Assembly: GCA_030615845.1 (NCBI GenBank)
Contig: JAUWYM010000074.1
Coordinates: 1-5,423, forward strand
Source of the DNA: Thermoplasmatota archaeon
Lineage (GTDB): Archaea > Thermoplasmatota > E2 > DHVEG-1
Reading direction: 5' to 3'
DNA: 5,423 nucleotides
Shown here piece after piece: positions 1,118 through 4,956 of this stretch (within the stretch, counting starts at the first letter, position 1; each line of letters starts with the position of its first letter). The notes under the pieces are model-generated. The model ran no database searches. It was not told where the DNA came from and worked only from the letters and a program-made list of their open reading frames with translations. The translations under genes were made by a program, and so were the position numbers.

Positions 1118-1440
1118 CTTACATCTATAAATGTCAAATTTGCCGGTTTCGTTTCGATTGTATAAATGAAAAACCTGTATGTCCACGTTGTGGCGGTCAG
1201 TTTGTTGAGAGGCTGATTCGAAGAGGTAAAAAAATAAAGAGGGAAAAGAAGTATGCAGGAGAGCATATAAAAATCGGAAAAAAATGCCGAGACTGTATCT
1301 ATTCGAACGGATCGGAAATTTTTATTGCGACGTGTACTTGTAACAAACCAGAAGTAATATACCGTCAAAATCTGGGATGGGTTTGCTTTAGTTTTTCTGA
1401 AAAAAATTTGAGACTAAATGAAATGAGGGCGGATTTATGA
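1114..1440 (+). CDS. Two-module cysteine-cluster (zinc-ribbon-like) protein
   Basis: The 108-residue product begins in an ATGA overlap with the preceding gene. The N-terminal module is CX2C-X12-CX2C (Cys7, Cys10, Cys23, Cys26; CPRCGG at the second knuckle), a classic zinc-ribbon layout, with an extra Cys16. A strongly basic linker follows (residues about 34-57, rich in Lys/Arg). The C-terminal module has Cys58, Cys61, Cys74, Cys76 and Cys91 in the order CxxC-X12-CxC-X14-C, ending GWVCFSF. This resembles small four-cysteine metal-binding domains common in phage and mobile-element proteins of anaerobes. Zinc is the likeliest ligand, but an Fe-S cluster cannot be excluded for the second module. 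The basic linker suggests nucleic-acid binding. The exact family is not recognised. It is the third gene of the tightly packed cluster and lies 42 bp before the ribbon-helix-helix gene. Confidence 0.75.
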   Translation: MTYIYKCQICRFRFDCINEKPVCPRCGGQFVERLIRRGKKIKREKKYAGEHIKIGKKCRDCIYSNGSEIFIATCTCNKPEVIYRQNLGWVCFSFSEKNLRLNEMRADL

Positions 1441-1828: not shown

Positions 1829-2515
1829 ATGAATGAAATATTAAAACCAGAGCAAAATCGAAGTATCAACCAAGTCAAGTTTGACAGAGGCATGACAATC
1901 GAGGAAGTCAAGACTCTTTTACAAGCACCTATGCCAAATCGTGAACGTGCATTCTTTCGTGCTATCTATGAAACATTCTACCGTGCTAATGAATTATTGA
2001 TGTGTAACATAGAGGATTACAACAAACAAACAGGGGAACTCGTTGCACGACACACTAAGAATAAATACAACCCCAAAACAAAACGGTATATCAAATCCCC
2101 ACCAAAGCATATGGTATTGTCAAAACCCACTCAGATGTTGTTTAGAAAGATTATAGGAAATAGAAAGCGAGGTCCTATATTTGTTAACAGGAACGGAAAA
2201 AGATTGTCCAAAACGTATTTACAATTGGCTGTCAACAAAATAGCAACGATGATAGGTGTCCAAAAGATAACCCATACCACAAAGACGGGTAAGAACTATC
2301 ATCTTGTTACGATAAAAGCATTGAGAGAATCAGGAGAACGCCATAGTGACTTAGCAGGGGCAGATTCAGAGGTAACTGCTAGGGCTGCTCAACACTCAGC
2401 AATAATAAAAGAAAAACACTATAAAAAGACAGGTTGGGAGGAAATTCAAAAACAGATTAAAAAATACCATCCTGCATTCAAAGATGACGCAAAAAATAAT
2501 AAGGACGAGATTTGA
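1829..2515 (+). CDS. Tyrosine recombinase / integrase, catalytic domain only
   Basis: The 228-residue protein carries the tyrosine recombinase catalytic set in order: Arg52 (FYRANELL, box I), a beta-hairpin lysine (Lys77 or Lys79 in HTKNKYN), Lys163-Ala-Leu-Arg166 in place of the usual HxxR, His189 (AAQHSAIIKEKHY) and the nucleophile Tyr198. Replacement of the first His by Lys (KxxR) is known in archaeal SSV-type integrases. These enzymes cut and rejoin DNA at short att sites through a 3'-phosphotyrosine intermediate. Only about 20 residues precede the catalytic fold, so the usual N-terminal core-binding domain of roughly 100 residues is missing; the 103-bp gap upstream is too short to hold it in another frame. 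A GAGG lies 8 nt before ATG 1829. The last codons and the TGA stop fall inside the 34-bp repeat at 2505-2538, as expected when att overlaps int. Likely substrates are that repeat and its copy at 4826. Confidence 0.88.
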   Translation: MNEILKPEQNRSINQVKFDRGMTIEEVKTLLQAPMPNRERAFFRAIYETFYRANELLMCNIEDYNKQTGELVARHTKNKYNPKTKRYIKSPPKHMVLSKPTQMLFRKIIGNRKRGPIFVNRNGKRLSKTYLQLAVNKIATMIGVQKITHTTKTGKNYHLVTIKALRESGERHSDLAGADSEVTARAAQHSAIIKEKHYKKTGWEEIQKQIKKYHPAFKDDAKNNKDEI

Positions 2516-2538
2516 ACACCAGTTTAATGGCAAAAAAT
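2505..2538 (+). repeat. 34-bp direct repeat, left copy (att-like site overlapping int 3' end)
   Basis: It is identical over 34 bp to 4826-4859, at an offset of 2321 bp. Similarity continues weakly for another 14 bp (10 of 14 matches, to 2552). The copy begins ACGAGATTTGAACACC and ends GGCAAAAAAT. Its first 11 bp encode the final residues and stop of the integrase. On the minus strand GTTCAAATCTCGT resembles a tRNA T-loop plus the 3' half of the T-stem. A site of this type next to a tyrosine recombinase is probably an attachment site. Confidence 0.7.
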
Positions 2539-2558
2539 CGTGGTTTTCTTCTATAGAA

Positions 2559-2578
2559 GCCCGCATCGGGATTCGAAC
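2559..2578 (-). other. tRNA 3'-end remnant (probable integration scar)
   Basis: Read on the minus strand, GTTCGAATCCCGATGCGGGC fits the 3' end of a tRNA gene: G53, T-loop TTCGAAT, the 3' T-stem strand CCCGA and the acceptor strand TGCGGGC. The matching 5' T-stem (expected TCGGG) is absent and no cloverleaf can be built upstream, so it is a fragment and not a tRNA gene. tRNA 3' ends are the usual targets of archaeal integrases. The isotype cannot be told. Confidence 0.5.
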
Positions 2579-2774
2579 GTGTAAATGACGTCACATTTTA
2601 TGATTTTATATCTGTTGAGTAGTTATTGTAATTTTTAATCTTCGAATCACTGAAAATACAAAAAATATTTTAGTTGCTTTTAGATACATTTTCTTTAGTA
2701 AGGTGGGTATAACATTCTATATCATTAAGACGTGACTTAACTCCAAATCAAATCGTTTGCCATAGTAAAGAAGA

Positions 2775-2786
2775 ATATATTATTTA
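2775..2786 (+). promoter_or_regulatory. Candidate archaeal TATA box for the radical SAM gene
   Basis: The AT tract ATATATTATTTA is preceded by purine-rich AAAGAAG, which resembles an archaeal BRE-TATA arrangement. Transcription starting about 25 nt downstream would give a leader of roughly 110 nt before ATG 2921. Other AT tracts at 2604-2612 and around 2715 are equally possible. Confidence 0.3.
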
Positions 2787-2849
2787 TCAAATCTACCGAA
2801 AACACGGGAAAAAAACTAGACATCTTTTTCTAAGATGATTTGACGAGAA

Positions 2850-2918
2850 ATGGAAAATATGAATAAGAAAAAAGTGAAAAGCGAAGAAATCAAAAATATG
2901 AAAAATACAGTGGAATAA
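2850..2918 (+). CDS. Possible 22-residue leader peptide
   Basis: An ATG-to-TAA frame encodes MENMNKKKVKSEEIKNMKNT followed by VE, a lysine-rich peptide whose stop codon is 2 nt before the ATG of the radical SAM gene. No good Shine-Dalgarno site precedes either start, so translation of the short frame could deliver ribosomes to the next gene by coupling. It may equally be chance in A-rich DNA; its composition is what such DNA would encode at random. Confidence 0.25.
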   Translation: MENMNKKKVKSEEIKNMKNTVE

Positions 2919-2920
2919 AA

Positions 2921-4789
2921 ATGTCATTCAAAAGGATTCTGCTAATTAAACCATCTGGGCGGCATGGCCTCTCTTTTGTATTTGATATAATCCCTACAGG
3001 ACTTGAGTACATTGCTGCATATATTGAAGACGTTGTAGATGAGGTTAACATTATAGATTTAGAGATGGAACCTAAACCAATTCAAAAAACTGTTGAAAAA
3101 TATTTGGATGAACTTAAACCTGATCTAGTTGGAATTTCAATGTCTGCAACAGAACACAGCAAAGGATTAGAAATTGCAAAACTGGCAAAAAAACGAGGCA
3201 TTGCAACAGTTCTTGGCGGATATCATCCTACATCAATTCCAGATGAATTACTTTCACATTCGCAAGTAGATATAGTTGTCAGGGGTGAAGGTGAACAGAC
3301 AATGCATGAGTTGGTCACCATAGGTGATGCAAAGGGTATCAATGGTATTTCGTATAAAGATGGTAATAAAATAATTCATAATCCCAATCGAGGATTTATC
3401 GAAGATTTAGACACTCTTCCTTTTCCAGCACGGCATCTCAGACGATACGTGTATCATACGACGTTAATGCAGGATTGGGAACATGATGTACTTACTACCT
3501 CCAGAGGTTGTTGGGGTAGATGCAGTTTTTGTTGCGAGCCTAGTATGAGTGAGAGTCATCAGCGATATCGTTCTCCGAGGAACGTGATGGACGAGATACT
3601 GGAAATAGTTAAATTTCATAACGGTAAACCTATGAGTATAGAAGTTACGGATCCGCATTTTATGGGTAGACCCAAGCTTGTTGATCAACTTTGTGACCTA
3701 CTCTTTCAGCATAAGTTAGATATAAGATTTGGCGTAAAAGTTCGACCTGATTCCATAGCGAAACATCCTGATATTGTTCGAAAAATGATTGCAATAGGTG
3801 TCGAAGGCTTTGAAATGGGTATTGAAAGCCCTAACATGAAGGATATTAAATCTACGTCTAAAGGTTTAAAAACCGATGTTCACGTCAAGGCACTTAAGAA
3901 TATTAAAAAATGGGGTGGATGTGCAGGTGGTACTTTTGTTATTGGTTTACCTGATCAGACTGAAGATGAAATATTACAATTTCCTAAGTATGCTAAAAAA
4001 ATCGGGCTTACAAGTTCAGCATTTGGTATTGCCACGCCATATCCTGGGACAAAATTTTATGAGGAATTAGACGCCCAGGGTTTAATCTTTGAAACAGACT
4101 GGAATAGATTTGATGAAATGCATTCTGTATTCAAAACCAAGCATCTTTCAAGTGAACGAACTGAAGAACTAGCATCGATTTGCATGGCAAAATTCTGGAC
4201 ATTAGATACATTTATCGAAAAGGATCGAGTACGTATGATAAAATATGGGACTAAACAACCTTTAATGAAGTTTATAGCTGATCGGATACATGACATTGAA
4301 TTCTCAGTGAATGCTGGATTACAGCTTCAAGAAGGTAATTTTAGTCAGCATGTTAAAGAGTTTATAGATGCATCACCTGATCCAGCAATCAAGGAATATA
4401 CAGAGAATGTTGGTATGCATAATGTTATAGAAATGTCCAGGTTTTTAAAGTTGCTCGGCTCTCAATCGATACAACTCACCATGAAGAATGATGGAACAAC
4501 CCCTACAAGTTGGATTTTTAAAACTACAAAAGATACAGTGGAATATATTCAAGTTATCCGCGGGAAATTGGATGAAAGTACTATAAATTTTGACATAGAT
4601 CTAAGGGATTTTCGATTAGACAGGCAACAACATTCGTCAAAAATTGATAACATCCGAATTATTGCTAAATTACTTGCATCAAACAATGGTATAAAACGAC
4701 GGTTCAATATGATGCGATTATTCACTGCAGGTGGCATTGAGTTTATCAAATATTTAGGGGAAAAAAATGTCTCAAATGTTACTAACTGA
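2921..4789 (+). CDS. B12-binding radical SAM enzyme with C-terminal extension
   Basis: The 622-residue protein has three parts. Residues about 4-165 form a cobalamin-binding Rossmann domain of the BchE-like kind: RILLIKP at the start, the GLEYIAAY helix, DLVGISMSATEH, GGYHPTSIPDELL (99-111) and VVRGEGEQT (119-127). Residues about 187-400 form the radical SAM barrel, with CX3CX2C at Cys197, Cys201 and Cys204 (RGCWGRCSFC) for the 4Fe-4S cluster, then GIES (300-303) and the PYPGTKFYEEL stretch (373-383). Relatives use SAM, and often cobalamin, for methylation, cyclisation or C-C bond formation at unactivated carbons. Archaeal examples of the wider superfamily act on membrane lipids (Tes, GrsA/B). 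Residues about 505-612 are an extra domain with weak SCP2-like character. I cannot assign a substrate. The ATG has no clear Shine-Dalgarno. The gene stands alone between two 34-bp repeats beside an integrase and reads as cargo. Confidence 0.88.
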   Translation: MSFKRILLIKPSGRHGLSFVFDIIPTGLEYIAAYIEDVVDEVNIIDLEMEPKPIQKTVEKYLDELKPDLVGISMSATEHSKGLEIAKLAKKRGIATVLGGYHPTSIPDELLSHSQVDIVVRGEGEQTMHELVTIGDAKGINGISYKDGNKIIHNPNRGFIEDLDTLPFPARHLRRYVYHTTLMQDWEHDVLTTSRGCWGRCSFCCEPSMSESHQRYRSPRNVMDEILEIVKFHNGKPMSIEVTDPHFMGRPKLVDQLCDLLFQHKLDIRFGVKVRPDSIAKHPDIVRKMIAIGVEGFEMGIESPNMKDIKSTSKGLKTDVHVKALKNIKKWGGCAGGTFVIGLPDQTEDEILQFPKYAKKIGLTSSAFGIATPYPGTKFYEELDAQGLIFETDWNRFDEMHSVFKTKHLSSERTEELASICMAKFWTLDTFIEKDRVRMIKYGTKQPLMKFIADRIHDIEFSVNAGLQLQEGNFSQHVKEFIDASPDPAIKEYTENVGMHNVIEMSRFLKLLGSQSIQLTMKNDGTTPTSWIFKTTKDTVEYIQVIRGKLDESTINFDIDLRDFRLDRQQHSSKIDNIRIIAKLLASNNGIKRRFNMMRLFTAGGIEFIKYLGEKNVSNVTN

Positions 4790-4825
4790 AGTTTTACTTC
4801 GATTATCATCACATGTATCAGACAA

Positions 4826-4859
4826 ACGAGATTTGAACACCAGTTTAATGGCAAAAAAT
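4826..4859 (+). repeat. 34-bp direct repeat, right copy (att-like site)
   Basis: It matches 2505-2538 at all 34 positions and lies 37 bp after the radical SAM stop codon. With the left copy it brackets the enzyme gene and its promoter region. Flanking sequence to the left differs completely (integrase codons in one, ACAA in the other), so the identity is not part of a longer recent duplication. Confidence 0.7.
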
Positions 4860-4891
4860 GCTGTTTTTCTCCTGTTAAAATGACAAAAAAA

Positions 4892-4912
4892 TGCAGGGGA
4901 CGTGATTCCGAC
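4892..4912 (-). other. Degenerate tRNA-3'-end-like segment
   Basis: On the minus strand, GGAATCACGTCCCCTGCA reads like the end of a T-loop, a 3' T-stem strand (CACGT), a 3' acceptor strand (CCCCTGC) and discriminator A. The T-loop deviates from TTCGAAT at two positions (TCGGAAT) and no 5' half is present. It lies in an extra stretch of about 59 bp that separates the right 34-bp repeat from the shared 12-mer, compared with the left side. Confidence 0.3.
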
Positions 4913-4940
4913 TGGGAGTTTAAATCACATATGATTATAT

Positions 4941-4956
4941 CCGCATCGGGATGCGG
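4941..4956. terminator. Perfect GC-rich hairpin between convergent genes, possible terminator
   Basis: CCGCATC-GG-GATGCGG is a perfect 7-bp inverted repeat (practically a 6-bp stem with a 4-nt loop). T-runs follow at 4973-4977 and 4981-4984. It could end the radical SAM transcript. Its first 12 bases are the same as 2561-2572 in the tRNA remnant, so it may instead be a rearranged att or tRNA scar. Confidence 0.4.

Follow-up and report, generated by a model that had tools for sequence, protein, structure and literature searches.

The stretch of DNA analysed here, hereafter the window, spans an entire contig (C65, 5423 bp; JAUWYM010000074.1) from the genome of a Thermoplasmatota archaeon (G000; assembly GCA_030615845.1), which is 73% complete. 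On its plus strand, a gene for a tyrosine recombinase (integrase; 1829..2515; PF00589), whose 228 aa comprise the catalytic part only, is followed by a gene for a B12-binding radical SAM protein of 622 aa (2921..4789). The radical SAM gene is bracketed by an exact 34-bp direct repeat, ACGAGATTTGAACACCAGTTTAATGGCAAAAAAT, at 2505-2538 and 4826-4859, with a start-to-start distance of 2321 bp. The integrase TGA falls inside the left copy, and 36 bp separate the radical SAM stop from the right copy. Extended to 48 nt, the two copies are 92% identical. The chance expectation for such repeats is about 1e-12 at the base composition of the window, and no third copy, allowing up to 3 mismatches, is present in the window's genome. 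A preliminary description of this DNA had noted the repeats on both sides of a lone B12 radical SAM gene as well as the position of the integrase stop, and both were found as described. It had also predicted that excision would leave an intact integrase; joining the two flanks in a script indeed gave an unchanged protein of 228 aa, with its C-terminus kept.

Comparison with related genomes indicates that the 34 bp belong to a longer predicted attachment site, about 54 bp in length, within which they are conserved best. The left site (2503..2556, + strand; profile match E=1.6e-13) contains the exact part 2505-2538 together with the integrase stop, and the right site (4826..4878, + strand; profile match E=5e-13), which contains the exact part 4826-4859, has the same orientation. 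We consider it likely that the repeats belong to tRNA-derived attachment sites and that this family of archaea has many one-gene cassettes, the radical SAM gene among them, which a tyrosine recombinase, perhaps the neighbouring integrase, would move. Both the movement of the cassettes and the role of this integrase are what we infer from the sequence comparisons given below.

A tRNA-derived site family

Stretches resembling GGATTTGAACACC were found near radical SAM orthologues of other genomes and were used to build a 23-nt search pattern made of a core and a lead. With at most 3 mismatches, this pattern occurs in 38 of 80 genomes of the same class, 36 of which belong to the window's family (n=45), and the reversed control pattern occurs in none of the 80. 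With at most 2 mismatches, a search of 389 genomes of the phylum retrieved it in 30/45 genomes of the family, 2/35 of the rest of the class and 1/309 outside the class, against one genome in 389 for the reversed control. Two models of the site were also used: profile A2 (49/51 sites; the set of 51 already lacked some of the weaker matches and of those close to contig ends) and R1, a sequence-only model of 69 nt from 49 sites. R1 matches 44 of the 45 family genomes, with 608 matches at E<=1e-3, but these include intact tRNA genes, so that genomes with few matches may have no true site; for this reason, we base the family-wide figure on the lead-containing pattern (36/45). The window's genome has 9 R1 matches, two of them among the 150 places listed.

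The left site of the window is identical at 48 of 54 nt to a site of G046 and at 46 of 54 nt to a site of G020, two genomes of other genera. The repeat described at first as the flank of this cassette holds that place, but it is not particular to the locus, being one instance of a family-wide, tRNA-derived site.

Fuller relatives of the window site read TGCAGGGGAAGGGATTTGAAC, which is a reversed tRNA 3' end, mostly that of tRNA-Leu. Their core is written ATTTGAAC, and the site consensus is AAAAAnTGCAGGGGAAGGGATTTGAACACCAGTTTACCGGTAAAA. In the aligned sites, TGCAGGGG is exact in 31 of 49, and CTCCTG occurs further on in 11 of 49. Read on the opposite strand, the first 20 nt or so after an A-run equal the 3' ends of intact tRNA-Leu(caa), (taa) and (cag) genes found in the window's family. 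Joined to this tRNA-derived part is a conserved lead containing the palindrome TTTACCGGTAAA; the lead has no match to the tRNA body, yet it is conserved across genera. The two window sites retain the lead and the T-loop half of the core. For the 49 sites, RNAalifold gives 0 shared pairs, which indicates that the sites are not attC-like. An attC-like fold had been considered from a CAGGGGA/TCTCCTG pairing seen by eye, and was ruled out by the same RNAalifold result and by the presence of CTCCTG in the aligned part of only 11 of the 49 sites.

Arrays, shared cassettes and the radical SAM gene

The sites are ordered along the genomes. Among the 150 places listed of the 608 R1 matches, all 31 adjacent pairs lying within 6 kb of each other, the window's pair included, are in one direction, with a median gap of 1.47 kb; at more than 6 kb, 5 of 6 pairs are. 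The fetched regions, partly picked for clusters, gave 43 same-direction pairs out of 43. In 28 fetched loci, chosen for holding sites or compared genes, 43 inter-site intervals were counted: 23 have exactly one open reading frame (ORF) of at least 80 aa, nine have two, six have none and five have more than two. Of the 60 ORFs in these intervals, 43 have the direction of the tRNA.

Several of these arrays end at a tRNA gene. Nine of the 92 distinct sites of the fetched regions (E<=1e-6) are themselves the 3' ends of intact tRNA genes, and three more are tRNA-Leu(taa) genes with an intron. An intact tRNA gene stands at the array end in L129, L130, L121, L177, L070, L073 and L085. For example, three sites are followed by tRNA-Leu(caa) in G020 (L130), and two sites by the same tRNA in G055 (L129). 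In L085, the array has tRNA-Ser(cga) at its end, and the sites in it correspond to the tRNA-Ser end with a similar lead. The tRNA is 11 kb past the last site in L119, and in L027 the radical SAM gene has a tRNA-Leu on one side and no site on the other.

Pfam matches (E<=1e-3) were obtained for 18 of 20 chosen ORFs of site-bearing regions. They include a PemK/MazF toxin, a Fic-family protein, methyltransferases, an M14 peptidase, a ZIP transporter, a NosD-type beta-helix protein, a second B12 radical SAM protein and domains of unknown function. Toxin genes are a cargo familiar from integrons. In the G055 array, a PemK/MazF-like toxin gene and a small upstream partner lie between two sites (L070:2201-2735). 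G054 has two sites around a further, distinct B12 radical SAM gene (L119:3361-4764), which shows about 31% identity to the one in the window.

To see where homology between genomes stops, alignments of at least 250 bp were surveyed at 42 chosen loci (sites or compared genes), with one genome per species. Fourteen of 55 inter-genome alignments end at a core in both genomes, whereas DNA within 45 nt of a core makes up only 2.4% of the DNA in these loci; seven of the 14 come from a single locus with a PFK-like gene and tRNA-Leu(caa), so that the 14 are not independent. At this locus (PFK-like and cysC/cysN-like names were given by eye from translations), G055 and G059 are 94.2% identical over 1320 bp beside the PFK-like gene, up to the tRNA-Leu(caa) 3' end, and diverge thereafter. 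Past the tRNA, cassettes follow in G055, while in G059 one finds a short ORF together with cysC/cysN-like genes, and no other site match in the 9.7 kb examined. This tRNA 3' end, give or take about 11 nt, is also the breakpoint of the alignments with G054, G058 and G003, and the content differs between G003, G054, G055, G058 and G059. Content also differs at a tRNA-Leu(taa) beside tRNA-Gly in G018, G054 and G055. G004 and G049 are 97.6% identical over 250 bp up to a core, and no match was found between them beyond it.

The strongest case of apparent exchange at cores is a methyltransferase cassette common to G020 (L079:2255-3440) and G058 (L121:2824-1647), which belong to two genera. The two copies are 83% identical over 1194 bp, with a protein identity of 89%, and in each genome the homology both starts and stops within a core. 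On the right, it ends in the tRNA-Leu(caa) gene itself in G058 and in another site in G020. The cassette sits at different places in the two genomes, and no integrase lies inside it.

The radical SAM protein of the window combines a B12-binding domain (PF02310) with a Radical_SAM domain (PF04055), and a CxxxCxxC motif was read from its translation; no named equivalog matches it at the cut-off. Of 39 other relatives searched, 5 have close orthologues (80-84%), and metagenome contigs hold radical SAM proteins that are 93-95% identical, as well as the closest integrases. In five of six genomes, the gene has a site or a tRNA-Leu alongside. It stands between two sites in the window and has a site on each side in G005; there, an opposite-strand ORF comes between the gene and the right-hand site, and 55 bp past the stop lies a degenerate core (E=0.09). 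G018 has a site upstream. In G019, tRNA-Leu(cag) comes right after the stop, and the upstream side is the contig end. In G004, an Arg-type core with a TTTTCTCCTGT lead lies about 90 bp past the stop. In the stretches compared, blastn found no block of at least 250 bp common to G000, G004, G005, G018 and G019 besides the gene's own. G005 and G019 share a block (89.0% over 1933 bp) whose end coincides with the tRNA-Leu core in G019 and with the degenerate core in G005. As a control with one gene, PFK-like proteins are 66% identical between G005 and G018, whose radical SAM proteins are 91% identical; the values are 73% and 80%, respectively, between G004 and G018, and G019 does not enter this comparison. 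This control hints at transfer of the radical SAM gene between genera and is no proof on its own.

The integrase and the explanations compared

The integrase matches PF00589 with 29 bits (cut-off 27.1), and 139 of 257 candidate proteins match it at E<=1e-3, its own record counted. Its named relatives are deposited as 'Candidatus Thermoplasmatota archaeon'. The predicted catalytic residues are R52, K163, R166, H189 and Y198, of which R52, R166, H189 and Y198 are invariant in 27 aligned sequences. They align with those of XerA (4a8e), the last four in the weakly scoring second half of the alignment, from which K163 was read. The predicted residues thus conform to the tyrosine recombinase pattern R, H/K-x-x-R, H, Y. 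The protein does not match the integron-integrase model; four NCBIfam hits, all below cut-off, are of the XerA/XerC/XerD/PRK00283 type, and an IntI-specific domain profile was not searched. An AlphaFold2 model was set aside as support (mean predicted local distance difference test score, pLDDT, 56.6).

Three other genomes have relatives of this integrase, in the form of pieces or of a frameshifted copy, with one piece truncated by a contig end. Such relatives were observed at L032/L023 (G005:C60), L030/L022 (G005:C409) and L031 (G058:C83): an N-terminal piece extends to about residue 80 and C-terminal pieces start from about residues 130-135, one of them at a contig end. These pieces may be split or decayed integrases. 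Larger integrases stand directly before a site in G044, G045 and G046, with the same relative orientation as in the window. At E<=1e-6, PF00589 has 41 matches in G045 and 38 in G046, and 1-16 in the other 14 genomes searched. Only 10 of 72 scanned integrase loci have a site-model match, several of these being tRNA 3' ends or window copies. Adjacency of a recombinase and a site recurs but is not general, and the pairing of the window integrase with the radical SAM cassette is a guess. A crossover in the T-loop part of the core would fit the half-sites of the window as well as the general behaviour of integrases that target tRNA genes.

In the mechanism that we propose, each cassette would be a small circle with one site. 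Insertion would occur by crossover in the core, either at a tRNA 3' end or at another site; the core would restore the tRNA and a copy would remain at the far end, so that repeated insertion at the tRNA would make the array grow. A gene lying between two adjacent sites would be cut out when these recombine with each other; for the window, the predicted product is a 2321-bp circle carrying the radical SAM gene, and the integrase would remain whole. The one-gene cassette between recombination-type sites that the preliminary description had proposed is supported by sites in 36/45 family genomes, by the common direction of 31/31 close pairs and by the cassette shared by two genera. That description had also named a type of locus that would speak against a cassette, namely homologous loci free of repeats in which the gene keeps its neighbours. 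Such a case was not seen: five of the six radical SAM loci have no other common block of at least 250 bp. The sixth, in G021, lay outside this comparison and has no site near the gene.

This absence in G021 is one of several observations that weigh against cassette movement by a recombinase such as the adjacent one. At the radical SAM loci, no site was found past the gene in G018, whose contig runs on there for 196 bp, and the site upstream of the gene in G004 is of the Leu type and inverted. Upstream of the gene, homology stops short of the site, which leaves the cassette with weaker support for its left edge than for its right. In the window, the TGCAGGGG half is missing from both cores, no intact tRNA gene was found on the 5423-bp contig, and the radical SAM gene has the orientation of the minority (17/60 ORFs). 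In the alignment survey, 41 of the 55 inter-genome alignments lack a core end in both genomes. As for the recombinase, relatives of the window integrase (E<=1e-20) occur in 4 of 80 genomes of the class, the window's included, whereas sites occur in most genomes of the family. The integrases of G044, G045 and G046 belong to another group, that of G046 having no significant similarity to the window's and the G045 copy carrying an in-frame stop. The site-bearing contigs C263 of G005 and C66 of G020 each carry an integrase some 2 kb away from the site, in a layout unlike that of the window.

A somewhat unlikely alternative is tandem accretion, in which larger, integrase-bearing elements would have been inserted repeatedly at tRNA genes and then decayed, leaving the radical SAM gene as leftover cargo. 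The integrases that adjoin sites in a window-like orientation in G044, G045 and G046 point in this direction, as do the fragmented or frameshifted relatives of the window integrase in G005, G058 and G045, the roughly 40 PF00589 matches of each of G045 and G046, and the degenerate cores of the window. Arrays of archaeal tyrosine-recombinase elements that re-use one target are also mentioned in a passage of PMC6563490. On the other hand, leftovers of larger elements agree poorly with the 23 of 43 inter-site intervals that hold exactly one ORF of at least 80 aa (six hold none), with the scarcity of site-model matches at integrase loci (10/72, several of them tRNA 3' ends or window copies), and with the methyltransferase cassette, which runs from core to core in two genera and is integrase-free.

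It is very improbable that the sites are a dispersed tRNA-derived repeat, or an intergenic element for transcript processing, with no role in recombination. The resemblance of the sites to part of a tRNA would suit such an element, and so would the A-runs that often precede them, which are T-runs in the tRNA direction, and the 43 of 60 ORFs that run in that direction. Against it stand the ends of inter-genome homology at a core with a change of one flank, the single direction of close pairs and the intact tRNA genes at array ends, and no secondary structure is shared by the 49 sites. Finally, chance, or a local duplication on both sides of a radical SAM gene already resident beside an unrelated integrase, would explain a repeat with just two copies in the window's genome, but it is barely credible in view of the near-identical sites of other genera (48/54 and 46/54 nt) and of the sites or tRNA-Leu alongside the orthologous gene in G004, G005, G018 and G019.

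Relation to known systems and other features of the window

Among systems that resemble the proposed one-gene cassettes, additive flexible genomic islands are described at bacterial tRNA genes in passages on 'Ca. Actinomarinales' (PMC7771536) and 'Ca. Methylopumilus' (fGI-2, PMC10872708), and a single such island in Alteromonas (PMC5217437); for Actinomarinales, cassette transfer between genera is reported (PMC7771536). They share with other genomes of the window's family the direct repeat of the tRNA 3' end at the far side of the insert, of which the window has the T-loop half only. The present case differs in being archaeal and in having most often one gene per unit, as well as sites in most genomes of a family and at several tRNA types. 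It also combines a tRNA core with a conserved non-tRNA lead, no counterpart of which is described in the passages on the islands.

Integrons, including the archaeal ones described in PMC9668308, are likewise arrays in which sites separate one-gene cassettes and most genes share a direction, and the same account has many arrays without a nearby integrase. As presented there, archaeal integrons have attC sites and IntI. In contrast, the window protein does not match the integron-integrase model, the sites share no hairpin, and the anchors are tRNA genes; the main text of PMC9668308 has no word beginning with tRNA. Tycheposons, as described in PMC10872708, are cargo transposons bordered by tRNA genes and have a tyrosine recombinase, two features that recall the present loci. 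At 4-200 kbp, they are set apart by that description from units with a median gap of 1.47 kb and one or two ORFs in most intervals.

Archaeal integrative elements that target tRNA genes (PMC8371274; integrated mobile genetic elements, iMGE, of Thaumarchaeota, PMC6563490) resemble the proposed cassettes by the action of a tyrosine recombinase on tRNA genes and by tandem integration, but are described in these sources as encoding their integrase. The word 'cassette' has 0 occurrences in the main text of a review of archaeal tyrosine recombinases (Badel 2021, PMC8371274), and the passage on cassettes in PMC6563490, a reference title aside, concerns bacterial integrons. No description of tRNA-anchored one-gene cassettes in Thermoplasmatota was found among the titles and abstract openings searched, most subscription journals and all bioRxiv preprints lying outside their scope. 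tRNA-targeted cassettes are known for bacteria; what looks new here is the archaeal, mostly one-gene and family-wide form with a hybrid site.

If the cassettes do move, most sampled genomes of the family would have a platform for gene-by-gene exchange built on tRNA genes and not on integron parts. This would explain single-gene swaps between genera, such as those of methyltransferases, radical SAM enzymes, toxin-antitoxin pairs and surface proteins, and the site profile could be used to find further cassettes of this kind. We also advance a bolder proposal, tentatively and leaning slightly towards doubt: the system could be an independently arisen archaeal counterpart of integrons, in which tRNA genes serve for docking, the hybrid site is the tag of a cassette, and genera of a single Thermoplasmatota family exchange one-gene cassettes, among them metabolic enzymes, through tyrosine recombinases that act in trans.

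Searches of viral contigs with the site pattern and for relatives of the radical SAM protein and the integrase gave nothing useful; the same is true of phage and plasmid records searched for integrase relatives and of an Rfam search of the window, and PADLOC returned weak or generic matches only. The remaining ORFs of the window are three in its left part, without family matches above cut-off (one has a sub-threshold zinc-ribbon match), an 83-aa ORF left of the integrase, without a family match, and a minus-strand ORF right of the right repeat, truncated at the contig end.

Further tRNA-like and repeat features lie near the two sites. Beside the left one, a 20-nt fragment (2559..2578, - strand) is identical to the 3' end of tRNA-Arg(gcg) of another genome; the matching gene (L167:3253-3326) ends with GTTCGAATCCCGATGCGGGC and G, and the fragment has no second copy in the window's genome, up to 3 mismatches. 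Beyond the right site, a third, degenerate tRNA-Leu-like core (TGCAGGGGACGTGATT; 4887..4907, + strand) gives a weak profile match (E=0.015). A 38-nt stretch beginning with TGCAGGGGACGTGATTCCGACTGGGAG, at 4892-4929 (+) of the window, is identical to positions 1273-1310 (-) of L084 (G000:C128) and looks like another, diverged site type of the window's genome. Further on, the inverted repeat CCGCATC GG GATGCGG (4941-4956) resembles the tRNA-Arg-type core at 2559-2578 and is possibly a decayed second Arg-type site.

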